From Solidesulfovibrio aerotolerans (GTDB taxonomy: Bacteria > Desulfobacterota > Desulfovibrionia > Desulfovibrionales > Desulfovibrionaceae): a stretch of DNA of 64,000 nt. How positions within the stretch are numbered: position 1 is the stretch's first letter; each line of letters begins with the position of its first letter. Below the pieces are notes generated by a model that worked only from the letters and a program-made list of their open reading frames with translations, had not been told where the DNA came from and ran no database searches. Positions 17,826-25,875 of the stretch are shown here, piece by piece. Location of the stretch: positions 1 through 64,000 of the forward strand of contig NZ_WVUD01000017.1 in assembly GCF_009856865.1 (NCBI RefSeq), written 5' to 3'. The translations under genes were made by a program, and so were the position numbers.

Positions 17826-20800
17826 ATGCAGCCCTTCCTCGCCGACCTGCACATCCATTCCCGCCACTCCCGGGCCACCAGCAAGGGCCTCACCCCGCGC
17901 CATCTGGCCGCCTGGGGCGAAATCAAAGGCATTTCCGTCGTCGCCACCGGCGATTTCACCCATCCCGGCTGGCTGGCCGAACTCAAAGAGGCGCTCGTCC
18001 CCGACGACGCGGGTCTTTTGCAACTGGCCGATCCGGCCGGACTGGCCACGGAAATCCCCTGGCTGCCCGAGGCCCGGCCCACCGGCCGGGTGCGCTTTAT
18101 GCTCTCGGCCGAAATCAGCTCCATTTACAAGCGCGGCGGCAAGGTCCGCAAAGTCCACAATCTGCTCTACGCCCCCTCCTTTGAGGCGGCCGAGCGCGTA
18201 AACGCCAAGCTGGCCAAGATCGGCAACCTGACCGCCGACGGCCGGCCGATCCTTGGCCTGGACAGCCGCCATCTGCTCGAACTGACGCTGGAAACCGACC
18301 CCCTGTGTTTTCTCGTGCCGGCCCATATCTGGACGCCGTGGTTTTCCCTTTTCGGCTCCAAATCCGGCTTTGATTCGGTGGAGGAATGTTTCGGCTCGCT
18401 CTCACGAGAAATTTTCGCCCTGGAGACCGGGCTGTCGTCTGACCCGGAGATGAACTGGACGCTCTCCGCCCTGGACCGCTTTCGCCTCCTCTCCAATTCC
18501 GACGCCCATTCCGGGGAAAAGCTCGGCCGGGAATGCAACCTCTTTACCGGCCCGGCCTCCTACACCGGCATCTTAAACGCCCTGCGCGGCCGGCCCGGGG
18601 AAACGCAGTTTGGCGGCACCGTGGAATTTTTTCCCGAGGAAGGGAAATACCACCTCGACGGCCATCGCGACTGCGGCGTGGTCCTGGAGCCGGCAGCGGC
18701 CAAGGCCCTGGGCGGCCTGTGCCCCAAGTGCGGCAAGCCGCTCACCCTCGGGGTGCTGCACCGGGTGCTCGATCTGGCCGACCGGGACACGCCGCTGCGC
18801 CCGGACGGTGCGCCAGGCTTTACCTCGCTCGTTCCGCTCGACGAACTGGCCGGCGAGGTCTGCGGCGTCGGCCCCAAGACCGGCAAGGTGCGCACGCTTT
18901 TGGCCGTGCTCCTGGCCCGCTTCGGCTCGGAACTGGCCATCCTGCGCGACGTGCCGGCCGAGGAGCTGCGCCGGGTCAGCCCCGGGCTGGCCGAGGCTGT
19001 GACCCGCATGCGCCAGGGCAAGGTCGCCCGCCAAGCCGGATTTGACGGCCAGTTCGGCCGCATCACCGTCTTTTCCGACGAGGAACGGCGCGACCTCAAA
19101 GCCGGACGGTTCCTGGCCGCTGCCCCCATGGCCCGCACCGCCCCGCGCGAACCCAAGGCCGATGACGACACCCCGGCCGAACCTCCCCCTGCCGCGACAG
19201 GGCGTCCGCTGCGGGCCAAAAGAAAAGGCAAAGATCGCGGCGGCCAGCTTCTTCCCATCCCGGACGCGCCGGCCAAACGCCGGATTATGCCCGCGACGCC
19301 GACTCCCGCCCCGCCCGCCGGCCTCACCGCCGATCAAGCCCAGGCCGCCCACACCGGCGCGCGCCATGTGCTGGTCCTGGCCGGTCCGGGCACGGGCAAG
19401 ACCCATACGCTTCTCGCCCGCATCCGCTCACTGCTGGACCTGGGCGTGGCCGCTGACAAAATTTTGGCCGTGACCTTCACCCGCCGGGCCGCCGCGCAAC
19501 TGCGTGAGCGCCTGGCCCGGGAGGACGGCGGCAGCGACATCCCCCGCGCCGACACCCTGCACGCCCTGGCCCTGGCAGCGCTTACCGAGGCCGGCCTGCC
19601 CGAACCCGTGCTGCTGGCCGAAAAAGCCTGCGAGCGCCTCTTTGCCCTGGCCAATCCCGAACTGTCCGGGGCGCGGCGGCGAACGGCCTGGAAGGAGCTG
19701 TGCCTTTCGCGCGAGCGCCTGACCCCGCCTGAAATCCGCCCCGAGGGCCTCCCCGGCCCGCAGCAGTATGCCGACCGCTACGCCGAGGGGAAGCGCGAGT
19801 GGAATTTGATGGATTTTACCGATCTGCTGGAAACGTGGCTGGACGCCTTGCGGGCCGGCCGCTGCCGGCCGCCCTGGACGCACGTGCTGGTGGACGAGGT
19901 CCAGGATCTGACCCCGCTGCAACTGGCGGTCATCGCCGCCCTGGCCGCCCGCGAGGGAACGACCCTTTTCGCCATCGGCGACCCGGACCAGTCCATCTAC
20001 GGCTTTCGGGGCGCGTCGGGCCGGGTGGCCGAGGCCTTGCGCGGGTTTTGGCCCGATCTGGCCACCATTACCCTCACGGAAAATTTCCGCTCGGCAGCAC
20101 CGCTTCTTGAATTTTCGGCCGGGGTGTTCCCGGGCCGCGCGGCGCTTAGCTCCCGGGCCGGGACCGAAATCCAGGCGGCTTGCGAAATCCAGCTCTACGA
20201 GGCCCCCACTGCGGCCGGCGAGGCCGCCTGGGTGGCCGAGCGCGTCGCGGCCTTATTGGGCGGCTCCTCCCTGACGCTGACCCGCGATTTTTCCGTGAAC
20301 ACCCTGGCCCCGGGCGACATCGCCGTGCTGGTGCGTTTTTCCGGCCTGATCCCGGGCCTGCGGGCCGCCCTGGACCGGGCCGGTCTGCCCGTGGCCGTGC
20401 CCGAGGCCGAGGCCTTTTGGAACGAACTGCGCGTGCGCCTGCTGCTGGGGGCGGCCGCCGTCTCCCTGGGCATCCCGACCCCTGACGGGCAGGAGATACC
20501 GCCAGACATCCCGGAGCGCATCCTTGCCAAGGGACCGCTGGGGCTGGCCGCCTTTTTGGCCGACATCCCGCCCTTTGACCGGCTGTTCTGGCAGGGGACG
20601 GCCTTTCGCGAGCTGGTGCGGGCCTACGACGCCCACGGCGGCTGGGCCGGACTGCTGGGCTTTGTGGCCGGGCAAAACGAATTGGAAATGGCCGGGGCGC
20701 GCTCGGAAAAGGTGCGGATCATGTCCGTGCACGCGGCCAAGGGGCTGGAATTTGCGGCTGTGTTCCTGCCGGCCCTGGAAGATGGCCTGCTGCCCTTTGC

Positions 20801-21071
20801 CGGGTCGGATTTTTTAAGTGGCAAACCCGGGCATCTGGCCGGGCAGATGGACGAGGCCGAGGAGCGGCGGCTTTTTTATGTGGGGCTGACCCGGGCCAAA
20901 AGCCGGTTGTACCTGTCCCATGCCGTCCGGCGCGAACTCTACGGGCGAAAGCTCATGCTCAAACGCTCGCGCTTTCTGGACACGTTGCCCCTTGGCGGGG
21001 TACGGCGACTGGCGCTTACGGCCCGCACCGTCACCCAGGCAAAACAACTTGGATTTTTTGGAGAAAACTGA
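17826..21071 (+). CDS. Endonuclease Q-like PHP nuclease fused to a UvrD/Rep-type helicase
   Basis: A 1081-residue two-part protein. The first part (about residues 1-425) is a PHP-fold metal hydrolase: DLHIHSRHS (8-16), a second metal motif NSDAHSGE (about 222-229), then a zinc-finger-like CPKCGKPLTLGV (about 299-310) preceded by another Cys, followed by LADRD and a helix-hairpin-helix-like segment. This order matches endonuclease Q, which nicks DNA 5' of deaminated bases in archaea and a few bacteria. After a basic, proline-rich linker (about 430-505) comes a superfamily 1 helicase: AGPGTGKT (about 519-526), VDEVQDLTPLQ, GDPDQSIYGFRGA, HAAKGLEF and FYVGLTRAKS. The C-terminal end QLGFFGEN resembles a sliding-clamp-binding peptide. 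AAGG precedes the ATG. A role in repair of deaminated bases is inference. Confidence 0.85.
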   Translation: MQPFLADLHIHSRHSRATSKGLTPRHLAAWGEIKGISVVATGDFTHPGWLAELKEALVPDDAGLLQLADPAGLATEIPWLPEARPTGRVRFMLSAEISSIYKRGGKVRKVHNLLYAPSFEAAERVNAKLAKIGNLTADGRPILGLDSRHLLELTLETDPLCFLVPAHIWTPWFSLFGSKSGFDSVEECFGSLSREIFALETGLSSDPEMNWTLSALDRFRLLSNSDAHSGEKLGRECNLFTGPASYTGILNALRGRPGETQFGGTVEFFPEEGKYHLDGHRDCGVVLEPAAAKALGGLCPKCGKPLTLGVLHRVLDLADRDTPLRPDGAPGFTSLVPLDELAGEVCGVGPKTGKVRTLLAVLLARFGSELAILRDVPAEELRRVSPGLAEAVTRMRQGKVARQAGFDGQFGRITVFSDEERRDLKAGRFLAAAPMARTAPREPKADDDTPAEPPPAATGRPLRAKRKGKDRGGQLLPIPDAPAKRRIMPATPTPAPPAGLTADQAQAAHTGARHVLVLAGPGTGKTHTLLARIRSLLDLGVAADKILAVTFTRRAAAQLRERLAREDGGSDIPRADTLHALALAALTEAGLPEPVLLAEKACERLFALANPELSGARRRTAWKELCLSRERLTPPEIRPEGLPGPQQYADRYAEGKREWNLMDFTDLLETWLDALRAGRCRPPWTHVLVDEVQDLTPLQLAVIAALAAREGTTLFAIGDPDQSIYGFRGASGRVAEALRGFWPDLATITLTENFRSAAPLLEFSAGVFPGRAALSSRAGTEIQAACEIQLYEAPTAAGEAAWVAERVAALLGGSSLTLTRDFSVNTLAPGDIAVLVRFSGLIPGLRAALDRAGLPVAVPEAEAFWNELRVRLLLGAAAVSLGIPTPDGQEIPPDIPERILAKGPLGLAAFLADIPPFDRLFWQGTAFRELVRAYDAHGGWAGLLGFVAGQNELEMAGARSEKVRIMSVHAAKGLEFAAVFLPALEDGLLPFAGSDFLSGKPGHLAGQMDEAEERRLFYVGLTRAKSRLYLSHAVRRELYGRKLMLKRSRFLDTLPLGGVRRLALTARTVTQAKQLGFFGEN

Positions 21072-21355: not shown

Positions 21356-22162
21356 ATGCAGTTACAATTTTGCAACCCCAATTTTTCCTGGCGTCTGGCC
21401 GCGCCGAGCTGCGTGTGGCCGGAAACCGCTCTCATTAATTGCCGTCGTCTGGCCCGCAACGTGCCCGAAGTCGGCCTCTACCTGCTGGAGCTGCATGCCT
21501 GCCTGGCCTACGGGCCCGAGGATCTGCCCCAAAAGACCTACGGCCTGGCCTACCACCTCCATCTGCCCCTGGATCTTCCCTGGATGCTTGGTGGCGCGAC
21601 GGCTTTCGCCGTGATGGAGCGGCTCTTGGAAATGACCGCCCATCTCTCCCCCTGGGCTTTCGTGCTCCATCCGCCCGCCGACGCCGGTGCCCTGGCCGAT
21701 TTCGTCCGGGCCTTTGCGGCCTCCGGGCGCGATCCGGCCACCTTGCTGCTGGAAAATACCGACACAGCCTCCCCGGCCGACACCCTGGCCCTGGCCCGGG
21801 AGTTGGGCTGCGGGCTGTGCCTGGACCTGGGGCACCTCTTGGCCATGAACCACGCCCTGCCAACCGATGACCCGGAACTGGTGGCGCGTACAGCCATGCT
21901 CCACGTCTATTCGCCCTTTGGCTGTGAAGGCCCGCCACAGGGCCGCAGCCATCTGCACCGCACGCTCACCTGCCTCTCCCCCGAAGGTGGCGACACGCTG
22001 ACCTGGATGCTGGGGCATTTGCGGCCCAAGACCCTGGTGCTGGAAATCTTTGCCCCCATCCATCTGGTGGAAAGCCTGGCCTGCATCGAGGCCATTGCCG
22101 ACGGCGTGGTCCCGCCGCCAGCCCTGGCCCCGACCCCGGTTGCGCCAGGGGACGCGGCGTGA
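21356..22162 (+). CDS. cbiR: Cobamide-remodelling phosphodiesterase CbiR-like protein
   Basis: A 268-residue protein of the AP-endonuclease-2/xylose-isomerase-like TIM-barrel superfamily, with likely metal-binding segments AYHLHLPLDL, LLLENTD and CLDLGHLLAMNH. CbiR enzymes hydrolyse the lower-ligand arm of pseudo-cobamides to give cobyric-acid-type precursors that the cell rebuilds with its preferred base. The assignment rests on the fold-type motifs and on cobU lying immediately downstream, with a 4-bp ATGA-type overlap. It has no signal peptide, so it is cytoplasmic. No strong ribosome-binding site precedes the ATG at 21356. A possible cobalamin riboswitch lies upstream. Confidence 0.75.
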   Translation: MQLQFCNPNFSWRLAAPSCVWPETALINCRRLARNVPEVGLYLLELHACLAYGPEDLPQKTYGLAYHLHLPLDLPWMLGGATAFAVMERLLEMTAHLSPWAFVLHPPADAGALADFVRAFAASGRDPATLLLENTDTASPADTLALARELGCGLCLDLGHLLAMNHALPTDDPELVARTAMLHVYSPFGCEGPPQGRSHLHRTLTCLSPEGGDTLTWMLGHLRPKTLVLEIFAPIHLVESLACIEAIADGVVPPPALAPTPVAPGDAA

Positions 22163-22677
22163 TCCGGCTGCTCCTTGGCGGCACGCGCTCGGGCAAATCG
22201 GCCCTGGGCGAAACGCTGCTGGCTGCCGGGCCGGTGCCCCACCGGGTGGTGGCCACGGGCCAGGGGCTTGATTTCGCCATGCGCGAGCGCATTAGCGCCC
22301 ACAAGCGCGCCCGCCGTCCCGGGGTGGCCGTTATTGAGGTGGGGGCCCAGGCTATGGACGTGCTGGCCCGGGAAGCGGGGAACGGTGGCACAGTGCTGCT
22401 GGACAGCCTGGACTTTTGGCTTTTTGCCTGTCACCACCAAGGGGTGGAGCATTCTGCCGCCCTGGCCCGGGGGCTTTCGCCCTATGCCGGGCCGGATGGG
22501 CCGGAACTGATTGTGGTTAGCGCCGAAACCGGCCTGGGGCCGGTTGCAGCCGATGCGGCCACACGGCACTTTATCGACGCCCTGGGCGGGCTCAACCAGG
22601 CGGCCGCCGCCCTGGCCGACGATGTGCGGCTGGTTGTCGCCGGACTCTGTGTGCAACTGAAGGGAAACGCCCCATGA
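22159..22677 (+). CDS. cobU: Bifunctional adenosylcobinamide kinase / adenosylcobinamide-phosphate guanylyltransferase
   Basis: Phosphorylates adenosylcobinamide and transfers GMP to it, late in the nucleotide-loop pathway of cobamide assembly. The 172-residue protein has the CobU P-loop GGTRSGKS (residues 7-14), VVATGQ with the following region holding the guanylylated residue, and LLDSLDFWL as the Walker-B-like strand. A typical C-terminal VVSAETGLG...RHFIDALGGLNQ segment matches CobU (usually VSNEVG...R.F.D..G.LNQ). It overlaps cbiR upstream and the DHH gene downstream by four bases each, so all three are translationally coupled. Linked to CbiR, it would rebuild remodelled cobamides. Confidence 0.88.
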   Translation: MIRLLLGGTRSGKSALGETLLAAGPVPHRVVATGQGLDFAMRERISAHKRARRPGVAVIEVGAQAMDVLAREAGNGGTVLLDSLDFWLFACHHQGVEHSAALARGLSPYAGPDGPELIVVSAETGLGPVAADAATRHFIDALGGLNQAAAALADDVRLVVAGLCVQLKGNAP

Positions 22678-23756
22678 GCCCCGTTTTTCGCAAAATGTCC
22701 CAAATCGCGGCCGGCCTGACCCAGGTCATCGGGCGCGGCGGCCGCTGGCTCATCGTCATCAACGCCGATCCCGACGCCTTGGCTGCGGCCATGGCCCTGC
22801 GCCGCATCATGGCCCACCGGGCGGCCGAAGTGGGCATTGCCCACGTCAACGAGGTCAAACGGCCGGACAATCTGGCCATGATGCGTTTTCTGCGTATCCC
22901 GGCCGTGCCGTTTAGCCCCAAACTGTGCGAGGCCTACGACCATTTCGCCATGGTGGACTCCCAGCCCCACCACCACCCGGACTTTACCGGGCGGCATTAT
23001 TCCATTGTCATCGACCATCACCCTGTCCTGCCCGCCCACCCCTGTCAGGCCGAATACGCCGACATCCGCCCGGACTACGGCGCGACGAGCACGATGATGG
23101 CCGAATATCTGCGCGGCCTGCATATCCGGCCGGGCAAGCTGCTGGCCACCGCCCTGGTCTACGGCATCAAGGCCGATACCCAGAGCTTCGAGCGCCATTT
23201 CCTGGAAGCCGACGTGCGGGCCTTTAGCGCCCTGACCAAGCACGCCGATATGACGCTGGTGCGCAAAATCATCTCCAGCGAGTACCACCGCCGCTGGCTC
23301 AAATTTTTCTCCAAGGCGTTTCGCAAGATGCGCTTCGTTGGCGCGCGCGGGCTGTTCGTGTATATGGACACCCTGGAAAGCCCGGACCTTTTGGTCATGC
23401 TGGCGGATTTTTTCACCCGGGTCCACGGCCTGTCCTGGAACATGCTGGCGGCGGTGGTCAAGGGCACGGTGGTGGTGGTTTTTCGCGGCGACGGCATCGG
23501 GCGCAACATGGGGCACATGGCGGCCAAACTCTTTGGCGACATCGGCTCGGCCGGCGGCCATCGGGGCGCGGCCCGGGCCGAGATCGAGCTGGCCAAACTC
23601 GGCGGCAAGCCGGTGGAGGAGTGGCTCTACAAGCGCCTCACCGGCCATAAGCTGCCGAGCAAGGAACAGTGCCCGGTGGAATTTCCGGCCGCGCCTCAGA
23701 GCGAACGCACGGCCCGGGCCGCTGCCGGGCAGGAAAAATCCGCCCTGGTCACATAG
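22674..23756 (+). CDS. DHH/DHHA1 family phosphoesterase (NrnA/RecJ-like)
   Basis: A 360-residue predicted Mn-dependent phosphoesterase. Metal motifs are NADPDALAAAMALRR (about residues 29-43), a DSQPHHHPD segment, DHHPVLP (the DHH motif, about 111-117) and the DHHA1-domain GGHRGAARAEI (about 284-294). Relatives degrade short oligonucleotides or cyclic dinucleotides; the substrate here cannot be fixed. Its ATG overlaps the cobU stop (ATGA), so it is in the cobamide operon, perhaps only by co-transcription. Its 3' end overlaps the 3' end of the opposite-strand kinase gene by 61 bp. Confidence 0.82.
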   Translation: MSPVFRKMSQIAAGLTQVIGRGGRWLIVINADPDALAAAMALRRIMAHRAAEVGIAHVNEVKRPDNLAMMRFLRIPAVPFSPKLCEAYDHFAMVDSQPHHHPDFTGRHYSIVIDHHPVLPAHPCQAEYADIRPDYGATSTMMAEYLRGLHIRPGKLLATALVYGIKADTQSFERHFLEADVRAFSALTKHADMTLVRKIISSEYHRRWLKFFSKAFRKMRFVGARGLFVYMDTLESPDLLVMLADFFTRVHGLSWNMLAAVVKGTVVVVFRGDGIGRNMGHMAAKLFGDIGSAGGHRGAARAEIELAKLGGKPVEEWLYKRLTGHKLPSKEQCPVEFPAAPQSERTARAAAGQEKSALVT

Positions 23757-25042
23757 CCCAGTTCCACATCGGCGGCATAGGCCGAAGCGTAGTTGGCCCG
23801 ATCCGCGCTCCAGACCCGGCGCACGGGCTGGGTCAGCGTGGCCGGCTGGCAATAGCCCTCGCCCACGGGTTCGGGGGTTAAAAGTGTTACGAGTTCCGGC
23901 ACGGTCGGCAGCCGCCAGTCGTCGTGGCCGCCAAGCCGCCCGGCATTGAGCGCCGCCACATAGGCACCAGCCTCCTCCCAGGTGGCCGCATAGGGCGCGG
24001 CCCGGCGCACCCAGGTCAGGCCGGCCGCCTTGTCCCGGACCAGATCGGCATCGACCTCGGTCAGCCTGCCCGGCCAGTAGGCCGTGGGCCGCCACAGTGC
24101 ATCCAGGCCAAACGCCTCCCGGGCCTGATGGACGCCCACCATGGCCGGCCGGCGACGCGGCAGCTCGGCTCCCTCGGGCACGCACCGGGGGCACAGCAAG
24201 GCCGGCGAGGTGGCGCACACCCCGTCCATGCGCCGCCGCCAGGCCGCCAAGGCCCCGTCCAGGGCCTCGGCCATCATCCGGGCGTCGGCATAGCGGCCGC
24301 CAGGCGTCACGCACAGCGAGCGCTCCAGCACCGGATCAAATTCGTCACCCAGCTCCGGCGCGCGGGCCGCAACCGACCACTCGCCCCACTCCGGGAGCCG
24401 CCCGGTCAGCATCCGAAAGAGTGTCACCCCCACCGCATACAGATCAGACCGGGCATCGGCGCTGTCCGGGTCGTCCTCCTGCTCGGGGGCGGCGTAATAG
24501 GGCGAACCGACCTTGACGTTGGACGGGCCGCCAAAGGACTCACCACGCACCTTGGACAGGCCCAGATCGGTGATTTTAATGACATCGTCGTCCGAGACGA
24601 GCAGATTAAAGGGCTTGACGTCGCGGTGGATGATGCCGGCGTAGTGGAGCCGGGCCAGACCGGCCAGGAGCTGGGCGGCGTACCCGGCGGCCCGGGGCAC
24701 GGGCAGCCGGCGGCTCTCCGCTTCCACCCGATAGGTCTCGCCGATGACCGACCCCAGGGATTCGCCGTACAATTCCATGACGAAATACGGCCATGGCCCG
24801 GTGTCGTCGTAGTCAAAGACATCGACGAGATTGGGGTGGCGCAGCGACCCAAGGAGCGCCGCCTCGTCGCGAAACAGCCGGGCAACCCGCTCCCGGCCCC
24901 ACATGGCCAGGGTCAGTTCGTTGGGGCGCAGCAGTTTTAAGGCCACCACCCGGCCGAGAACCGGCGAGCGGGCCTTAAACACCGCCCCCATGCCGCCGCG
25001 ACCAAGCACCCCGTGAATTTCGTATCTGCCAATAGCCCGCAT
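23696..25042 (-). CDS. Ser/Thr protein kinase with C-terminal DUF1566/Lcl-type domain
   Basis: A 448-residue eukaryotic-type kinase. It has a glycine loop GRGGMGAV (about residues 14-21), catalytic Lys36 in VALKLL, HRDVKPFN (139-146, base Asp141), DLG instead of DFG (159-161) and APE (185-187), so activity is expected. After about residue 280 comes a CPRC pair and then a domain with TGLTWVRR-like and DDWRLPTVPEL signatures (about 345-385), typical of DUF1566/Lcl C-terminal domains that are usually extracytoplasmic. No membrane segment is visible, so this domain would be cytoplasmic here. GGAGGACGG precedes the ATG at 25042. It converges with the DHH gene. Confidence 0.85.
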   Translation of the reverse strand: MRAIGRYEIHGVLGRGGMGAVFKARSPVLGRVVALKLLRPNELTLAMWGRERVARLFRDEAALLGSLRHPNLVDVFDYDDTGPWPYFVMELYGESLGSVIGETYRVEAESRRLPVPRAAGYAAQLLAGLARLHYAGIIHRDVKPFNLLVSDDDVIKITDLGLSKVRGESFGGPSNVKVGSPYYAAPEQEDDPDSADARSDLYAVGVTLFRMLTGRLPEWGEWSVAARAPELGDEFDPVLERSLCVTPGGRYADARMMAEALDGALAAWRRRMDGVCATSPALLCPRCVPEGAELPRRRPAMVGVHQAREAFGLDALWRPTAYWPGRLTEVDADLVRDKAAGLTWVRRAAPYAATWEEAGAYVAALNAGRLGGHDDWRLPTVPELVTLLTPEPVGEGYCQPATLTQPVRRVWSADRANYASAYAADVELGYVTRADFSCPAAARAVRSL

Positions 25043-25090
25043 CCGTCCTCCGTCTGTTTCCGGGTGCTCCCCGGCTTGCTGGTCGCTGGA

Positions 25091-25297
25091 TCTTCGGCCC
25101 GCTCCAGGGCGTTCATAGCCTCCCGGCCGCTGGCCGTCGGGCCACACTGGACAATTGGCTTTGCGGCCTACTCCAGAGCGTCGATTGCCCCTCGGGCGCT
25201 GGCTGCCGGGCCGCACTGGCTCGTTGGCTATTCGGCCCGTTCCAGGGCGTCGATATCCCCGGCTGCGAGCCCGGCCACGTTGCGGCTGATCTTTTCG
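25091..25297 (-). repeat. Three-copy 69-bp tandem repeat derived from the acetyltransferase 3' end
   Basis: Units start at 25091, 25160 and 25229, exactly 69 bp (23 codons) apart. The unit at 25229 is the true 3' end of the acetyltransferase gene (encoding ...DIDALERAE stop). The other two lie beyond its stop and are diverged copies encoding AIDALE stop and AMNALERAE. The repeat fills the gap to the kinase gene. Confidence 0.8.
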
Positions 25298-25875
25298 ATG
25301 GGCCAGTCCCACCAGGACAGGGCCAGCAACCGCGCCACGTCCGTCGCAGAATAGCGCTCCCGGATGACGCGGGCCGGATTGCCGCCCACCACGGCGTAAG
25401 GCGGCACGTCCCCGGTCACCACGCTCCCGGCCCCGACCACGGCCCCGTGGCCGATGCGCCGCCCGGGCAAAATGAGTGCCCCGTAGCCGATCCAGACGTC
25501 GCTGCCGACCACGGTATCGCTGTACGGGCCGGACGGCAGACCGGCCTTTTCCCAGCCATGCCCAAAAATGGCGAACGGATAGGTCGAAACGCCGCCCAGG
25601 GAATGGTTGGCCCCGTGCATCATAAAACGCACGCCGCTGCCAAGGGCGCAAAACGCGCCGATGATGAGTTTGTCGCCAATAAAATCAAAATGATACAGAA
25701 CGTTTTGGCGCTCAAAATCCGCAGCCCGCTCCCCTGGTGTGCCACTGGCGTCGAAATAGGTATAGCGCCCGACGCGGATATTGGGGTTGGTGACCACGTT
25801 TTCCAGAAAGACCAGCTTGTCATAGCCGGCCAGCGGATACCGGCAGGTCTGATCCGGGGCGTTGGGTGGGGCCAT
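25228..25875 (-). CDS. CatB/VatD-like hexapeptide-repeat O-acetyltransferase
   Basis: A 215-residue left-handed beta-helix acyltransferase of the xenobiotic (chloramphenicol/streptogramin) acetyltransferase branch. It transfers acetyl from acetyl-CoA to a hydroxyl. Motifs are [13 protein letters not shown] near the start, a catalytic His in [16 protein letters not shown], then hexapeptide turns ([30 protein letters not shown]) and [14 protein letters not shown]. Chromosomal members often act on sugars or unknown substrates, so drug resistance should not be assumed. The ATG at 25875 has AGGAGG seven bases upstream. Its last 23 codons have been duplicated twice downstream. Confidence 0.85.

Follow-up and report, generated by a model that had tools for sequence, protein, structure and literature searches.

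What does a bacterial protein do that carries a DNA-nicking nuclease and a DNA-unwinding motor in one chain, and is such a join real? The question is raised by a 64,000-nucleotide stretch of the Solidesulfovibrio aerotolerans genome (contig NZ_WVUD01000017.1; hereafter the window), whose plus strand holds at 17826-21071 a single unbroken, ATG-started frame of 1081 amino acids (aa). An earlier note, made from the letters of this DNA alone, had read the frame as an endonuclease Q (EndoQ)-like nuclease fused to a UvrD-type superfamily 1 (SF1) helicase, and all the motifs in question (DLHIHS, CPKCGKPLTLGV, LADRD, GPGTGKT, DEVQD, GDPDQSIYGFRGA and TRAKS) are located in the frame. We confirm that the EndoQ-UvrD protein is real. 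EndoQ nicks DNA 5' of uracil, hypoxanthine, xanthine and abasic sites, and UvrD-family motors travel 3' to 5'. We propose, with a probability of roughly 0.6, that the fusion is a clamp-tethered nick-and-unwind excision-repair enzyme for deaminated (uracil, hypoxanthine, xanthine) and abasic nucleotides.

The N-terminal half carries a complete EndoQ module as judged by both sequence and predicted structure. Residues 6-415 match PfuEndoQ (5zb8) in phmmer with an E-value of 3.6e-49. An AlphaFold2 (AF2) model compared by Foldseek puts residues 1-428 on the same structure with a template modelling (TM) score of 0.88-0.90 over the EndoQ chain, a root-mean-square deviation of 2.3-2.4 Å and 31-32% identity, and on 7k30 with a TM score of 0.89 and 2.7 Å. 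Most 10-residue blocks of the module exceed a predicted local distance difference test (pLDDT) value of 85, and the model indicates that the three-part EndoQ fold is present in full. All PHP-type metal and catalytic residues of PfuEndoQ (D6, H8, H10, E76, H84, H139, E167, D192 and H194) have equivalents in the window protein, read off the alignment at the residues named in PMC4357722 and PMC8307549. In addition to the metal motif listed in Table 1, the active-site residues are E96 (Pfu E76, assigned by its position between two aligned blocks), H111 (H84), H167 (H139), E200 (E167), G202 (G169), S204 (S171) and S225-D226-A227-H228 (S191-H194). All 65 aligned fused relatives retain the nuclease positions that were counted. 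As 64 of these loci were fetched with the peptide patterns PAH[IVA]WTP[WH] and GLSSDPxMN, the conservation of H167, G202 and S204 in this set is partly by construction; the same three residues are also invariant in a 19-sequence alignment that predates the pattern scan. The zinc site, which reads CSRC...CPKC in Pfu, has His in place of the first Cys, as do all 19 sequences of that first alignment. A generic PHP phosphatase without the EndoQ zinc finger and nucleic-acid-binding parts, the alternative named in the earlier note, is rejected since the whole EndoQ fold and the zinc site are found; the assignment to EndoQ is upheld, and the structure prediction which that note had recommended agrees with it.

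The C-terminal half is a UvrD-like SF1 helicase, as had been proposed. Residues ~500-1060 match the Pfam families UvrD-helicase (PF00580, E 6.7e-40) and UvrD_C (PF13361, E 1.1e-28), both over the gathering score, the SF1 motif set is present (Table 1), and Foldseek places the module on the UvrD-DNA complex 2is2 with a TM score of 0.71. Across the 65 aligned proteins the helicase positions are kept in every row through motif IV and in 62-64 rows in motifs V and VI, the shortfall being due to one incomplete row and two rows with Ser for Thr. The spacing from the Walker motif to the other motifs was taken with 15 of 105 proteins, which fall outside simple patterns, excluded. Scores lie far under the equivalog cut-offs for pcrA (182.5 against 911.2 bits), uvrD (179.1 against 1144.45) and rep (158.6 against 951.45), so the module is not a UvrD, PcrA or Rep orthologue. 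The host genome encodes a separate UvrD of 744 aa, and the stretch from motif IV to motif V that holds the 2B subdomain measures 254 aa in that protein and 216 aa in the fusion. Databases presumably list EndoQ-UvrD proteins under UvrD names.

The join is a regular feature of the window's class, Desulfovibrionia. All 20 class loci that were fetched in addition to the window have both parts in one frame, so the join is not chance, and among 150 class matches listed, 144 frames are at least 1000 aa long and 6 are shorter; a frame or assembly artefact is rejected on these counts. Based on the 65-sequence alignment, AF2 predicts two confident modules (mean pLDDT 83.8, predicted TM (pTM) score 0.57) separated by a low-confidence linker (Table 1), which indicates that in the model the modules are tethered and not rigidly docked. 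A close relative from genome G069 (locus L108) has a 91% identical EndoQ part. Compared with it, the ratio of nonsynonymous to synonymous substitution (dN/dS) is lowest in the EndoQ half (0.125), somewhat higher in the helicase half (0.18) and highest in the linker (0.48).

How far does this architecture extend? Of 297 class genomes, 292 have EndoQ (240 of 242 if only the good genomes are counted), usually as a single match, and in the window's phylum it is present in 221 of 345 genomes; non-class phylum matches with a listed frame length divide into 74 of 136 of fused length and 62 short ones. The named loci are the best 80 of a scan keyed on the two peptide patterns given above, which biases residue conservation and phylum shares among them. 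Within these 80, 69 are fused in one frame (7 of these truncated by a contig end), 4 have the helicase adjoining or in a broken frame, and no helicase was found in 7, one of which (L163) lies at a contig end. They comprise Actinomycetota isolates (Micromonospora, Saccharothrix, Kibdelosporangium, Saccharopolyspora and others) as well as members of Bacillota, Planctomycetota, Chloroflexota, Elusimicrobiota, Melainabacteria, Fibrobacterota, Gemmatimonadota, Bacteroidota and other groups. A survey of carriers, likewise recommended in the earlier note, thus finds the fusion to be widespread. That note's statement that EndoQ occurs mainly in archaea mirrors reviews (PMC8438529) but does not fit the wide bacterial occurrence seen here; a 2013 paper had already called the COG1379 family one of Bacteria and Euryarchaea (PMC3820547). 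EndoQ-UvrD is a real, conserved and widespread architecture joining a known nuclease with a known type of helicase.

The class forms a single supported clade on the EndoQ tree, with all members fused. Mapping the fused state onto the whole 141-row tree takes 18 changes, and well-supported branches force no fewer than 11 of these, indicating that helicases were gained or lost repeatedly. The EndoQ part of a Desulfohalobiaceae locus is identical to that of a genome from the window's order (G256), and Desulfonatronospira groups with the same order. One closely related trio consists of a fused protein (L156) and two EndoQs standing alone (L100 and L179), which points to recent helicase loss or a broken frame. 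A UvrD-like helicase follows EndoQ, downstream and on the same strand, in 3 of 20 stand-alone loci selected from the phylum. Together with the 4 cases among the best 80 named loci, EndoQ and a UvrD-like helicase adjoin as separate or interrupted frames in 7 loci, an arrangement expected if the pair works together. The helicase starts 1 base after the EndoQ stop in L104 and 10 bases after it in L137; some of the seven pairs may be frameshifts or assembly breaks instead of true gene pairs.

Behind the helicase, the frame ends in a putative β-clamp-binding motif (Table 1). QLxLF is the published consensus for binding the β-clamp (PMC4549789), and the G069 relative has QLDLF at the equivalent place. 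Of 103 complete fused proteins, 72 have a QLxLF-type motif in their final 30 aa, a count that leaves out 7 fused proteins truncated at contig ends; shuffled sequences give a mean of 1.8 and a maximum of 7, and seven control windows of the same 103 proteins hold 0-2 such motifs. In 71 of the 103, and in 63 of 80 outside the class, the motif is at most five residues from the end. Stand-alone or split EndoQs carry it in 10 of 30 cases (shuffled mean 0.23). Among flanking open reading frames of at least 200 aa, 9 of 478 have the motif, of which 6 are split-off helicases beside EndoQ; the seventh split helicase (L206) ends in QLKLF, bringing the tally for split helicases to 7 of 7. A DNA pattern for the codons of the window's motif has only two inexact matches elsewhere. 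Shiraishi et al. 2016 pointed out that bacterial EndoQ homologues, with Bacillus and Desulfovibrio named, have clamp-type motifs in their C-terminal region (PMC4858679), so the motif itself is not new; new here are its breadth, its position behind the helicase and its presence on split helicases. Archaeal EndoQ is reported to bind PCNA via a C-terminal PIP box and to be stimulated by it (PMC4858679), and a 2013 study tied the P. abyssi homologue to PCNA (PMC3820547). Judged by its sequence, the C-terminal tag of the fusion is likely a docking tag for the replication clamp.

Of 140 loci, 10 have a dnaN-like gene in the flanks that were fetched (L136, L146, L152, L159, L162, L168, L185, L098, L149 and L101), with Pfam confirming 4 of 4 tested. 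L162 shows gyrB-dnaN in divergent orientation. Several loci have a small gene pair between dnaN and the EndoQ gene, one of which (L136) is RdgC-like in Pfam.

Taken as a repair enzyme, the fusion would act in a short series of steps. The EndoQ module would flip the lesion out and make a nick on its 5' side that leaves a 3'-OH. The UvrD-like motor tethered to it would then load at the nick onto the intact strand, travel 3' to 5' and peel the lesion-bearing strand from its 5' end as a 5' flap, while a polymerase would extend the 3'-OH during strand displacement. Through its C-terminal QLxLF-type tag the protein would stay on the DnaN clamp, which would place it at the fork or behind it. Fusion to EndoQ and a 3'-to-5' polarity of the motor fit such a nick, unwind and resynthesise scheme. 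Activity on uracil, hypoxanthine and abasic sites is reported for a bacterial stand-alone EndoQ from B. pumilus (PMC8438529, PMC6202378), and published EndoQ pathway models invoke a helicase (PMC4357722, PMC8438529); the fusion would provide the motor that these models take from elsewhere.

The scheme presupposes that nicking and unwinding are coupled. The long disordered linker and the pTM score of 0.57 would suit two enzymes fused for co-expression only and working uncoupled, as would the repeated gain and loss of the fused state. We consider this improbable, given that the pair stays adjacent in the seven split loci, with the clamp tag on every split helicase, and that the identities of the EndoQ and helicase modules co-vary across the 65 fused proteins (Mantel r 0.90; 0 of 999 permutations as high).

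Which enzymes deal with deaminated bases in these genomes otherwise? Models for uracil-DNA glycosylase (UDG, PF03167), EndoV (PF04493) and AAG (PF02245) find no match in the window's genome. In a sample of 60 class genomes UDG is detected in 9 and missing from 51, and dUTPase is detected in all 60; EndoV and AAG are each found in 0 of 60, AlkA, Nth and ExoIII types not being part of the search. In 14 control genomes the same models detect UDG in 13, EndoV in 6, AAG in 3 and dUTPase in 11. UDG-fold matches within the class come from G034, G018, G019, G024, G038, G043, G048, G049 and G051 and are weak in all but G034 (best E 3e-16). The earlier note had suggested a repair route separate from UDG, and that carriers be surveyed for lack of Ung or EndoV. 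Inside the class this holds for most of the sampled genomes, with UDG missing from 51 of 60 and EndoV from all 60. It fails for UDG in the rest of the phylum, where EndoV in turn has no clear relation to EndoQ. We advance tentatively, at somewhat under even odds, the wider proposition that most of the class gave up UDG and EndoV and starts deaminated-base repair without a glycosylase, by a clamp-tethered nick-and-strip protein, and that the same unit is an unrecognised repair machine across many phyla.

Several observations weigh against the proposed clamp-tethered repair enzyme. All nine UDG-positive class genomes also have EndoQ. Elsewhere in the phylum, UDG is present in 203 of 207 genomes with EndoQ and in 104 of 124 without it (Fisher p 2.4e-6 towards co-occurrence, not corrected for shared ancestry), so that the two enzymes tend to occur together instead of replacing each other. 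Of 24 genomes chosen from the 69 named fused loci, 23 have UDG; the tree puts one of the 24 (L187) in the window's order. These counts do not force a dedicated uracil role, and missing UDG characterises most of the class and not the fusion; as a general replacement for UDG the fusion is rejected outside the class. EndoV is found in 92 of 207 EndoQ-positive and 62 of 124 EndoQ-negative non-class genomes (p 0.36), and a link between EndoQ and loss of EndoV is dropped for want of a clear relation. Other points concern the protein itself. Its score with the NCBIfam model TIGR00375 is 154 bits against a cut-off of 326.6 (143.9 bits when the model is run on the genome), so it does not qualify as an equivalog of that family. 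The same model gives hits in B. subtilis, M. jannaschii and M. acetivorans, of which two exceed the cut-off. We describe the nuclease part as an EndoQ-type module on a bacterial branch of its own. The pTM score implies that the AF2 model does not give a fixed arrangement of the modules, 17 of the 20 chosen stand-alone EndoQ loci have no helicase attached or nearby, and only 8 of 23 class members have the strict clamp motif within five residues of the end. Among the ten dnaN neighbours, seven belong to related deltaproteobacterial loci, the others being L098, L101 and L149.

Since most of the searched hosts outside the class have UDG, the main rival is a nick-and-unwind enzyme associated with replication that has a wider or different range of lesions, its target being not mainly deaminated bases but abasic sites, oxidised pyrimidines or another distortion. 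EndoQ is reported to cut abasic sites and some oxidised pyrimidines as well (PMC8307549), and dUTPase in all 60 sampled class genomes would limit the input of uracil. The residues to which the exclusion of T and A is attributed (Pfu H139, G169 and S171; PMC8307549) are, however, all kept in the window protein, and we regard this alternative as rather unlikely, although it is the strongest of those considered. Repair of deaminated and abasic nucleotides stays our preferred role. Nicking of deaminated bases and coupled unwinding would then be the work of the fusion protein itself, and the same design in many bacteria may be part of how this group repairs deamination damage.

A pairing of nuclease and UvrD-like helicase also recalls anti-phage defence. 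Of the PADLOC models, those for GajB match the helicase best (E 1.5e-55), an antiviral role of bacterial EndoQ is raised as a possibility in a review (PMC8307549), and EndoQ is patchy in one actinomycete order, that of Micromonospora okii (22 of 121 genomes, 21 with frames of more than 900 aa). A Gabija-style defence against uracil-containing or otherwise modified phage DNA is nevertheless highly improbable. In the class the gene is near-universal, mostly single-copy and forms one supported clade, and none of the seven window neighbours searched in Pfam belongs to a defence family. With tblastn no EndoQ relative was found among 50,697 phage and 72,556 plasmid records, and a scan of viral contigs with the two peptide patterns matched 27 stretches, none of which proved related to EndoQ. 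Mobile or phage cargo is rejected on the same scans. Membership of a Gabija system is likewise not borne out, the seven neighbours matching other Pfam families, two of them under the cut-off.

These neighbours are a signal peptidase gene, lepA, sat, a TIM-barrel gene (PF01261, under the cut-off), cobU, a DHH gene (just under the cut-off) and a kinase gene; no operon with repair genes was seen among them. Roughly half of the other 20 class loci likewise have cobU and the TIM-barrel gene, which we take to be CbiR-like, close to the fusion. Coordinates are collected in Table 1.

Table 1. Features of the EndoQ-UvrD gene and of the region downstream of it in the window.
Feature	Residues	Position	Strand	Remarks
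EndoQ-UvrD fusion gene	1-1081	17826..21071	+	1081 aa plus stop; Pfam and phmmer matches
EndoQ module	1-428	17826..19109	+	PHP catalytic, zinc-binding and helical C-terminal parts; phmmer 5zb8/7k30, AF2, Foldseek
Metal motif D7, H9, H11 (DLHIH)		17844..17858	+	equivalents of Pfu D6/H8/H10
Zinc site H280-x2-C283 ... C299-x2-C302	280-302	18663..18731	+	Cys 65/65, His280 63/65 in the 65-protein alignment
Disordered linker	429-494	19110..19307	+	pLDDT <50; dN/dS 0.48
UvrD-like SF1 helicase	495-1066	19308..21023	+	Pfam PF00580, PF13361; Foldseek 2is2
Walker A GPGTGKT	520-526	19383..19403	+	motif read and placed in alignment
Motif II DEVQD	690-694	19893..19907	+	D690, E691, Q693, D694 65/65
Motif III GDPDQSIYGFRGA	718-730	19977..20015	+	D719, Q722, R728 65/65
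Motif VI EERRLFYVGLTRA	1012-1024	20859..20897	+	T1022 62/65, R1023 64/65
Putative β-clamp-binding motif QLGFF	1074-1078	21045..21059	+	3 residues from C-terminus
TIM-barrel gene, cobU, DHH-type gene		21356-23756		downstream of the fusion
Large frame		23699-25651	-	Ser/Thr protein kinase domain and Lcl_C domain

No paper describing an EndoQ-helicase fusion was found in the literature searched, and as far as we could find the EndoQ-UvrD architecture is undescribed so far. Shiraishi 2015 counts Desulfovibrio among bacterial EndoQ homologues and includes a domain drawing (PMC4357722), so its authors may have seen the long form. Beyond the earlier note, the present analysis adds the breadth of the fusion, the C-terminal clamp motif and the UDG and EndoV pattern inside and outside the class. 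EndoQ emerges as an enzyme found widely in bacteria, mostly joined to a helicase and often clamp-tagged. The fusion offers a directly testable role, in a class where most sampled members lack the usual enzymes, and frames a testable question: how bacteria without detectable UDG, EndoV and AAG (51 of 60 class genomes) keep their DNA free of deaminated bases.

Among known systems, the protein shares with PfuEndoQ (5zb8, 7k30) the whole fold, the metal-site residues, the zinc site, the helical C-terminal part and a C-terminal clamp-type motif, and differs in the fused helicase, in the His that takes the place of the first zinc Cys and in a bacterial clamp-type motif that replaces the PIP box. The bacterial stand-alone EndoQ of Bacillus pumilus and B. 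subtilis (COG1379) is the same kind of nuclease without the helicase, and a clamp-like C-terminal motif is found in some stand-alone or split EndoQs as well. With UvrD, PcrA and Rep the fused helicase has in common the SF1A motifs and a fold like that of UvrD-DNA complexes; its 2B-holding stretch is shorter, it is followed by the clamp-type motif, and it falls under their equivalog cut-offs. Gabija GajA-GajB likewise pairs a nuclease with a UvrD-like helicase, but its nuclease, GajA, is an unrelated OLD-type TOPRIM enzyme, its genes are separate and its context is defence.

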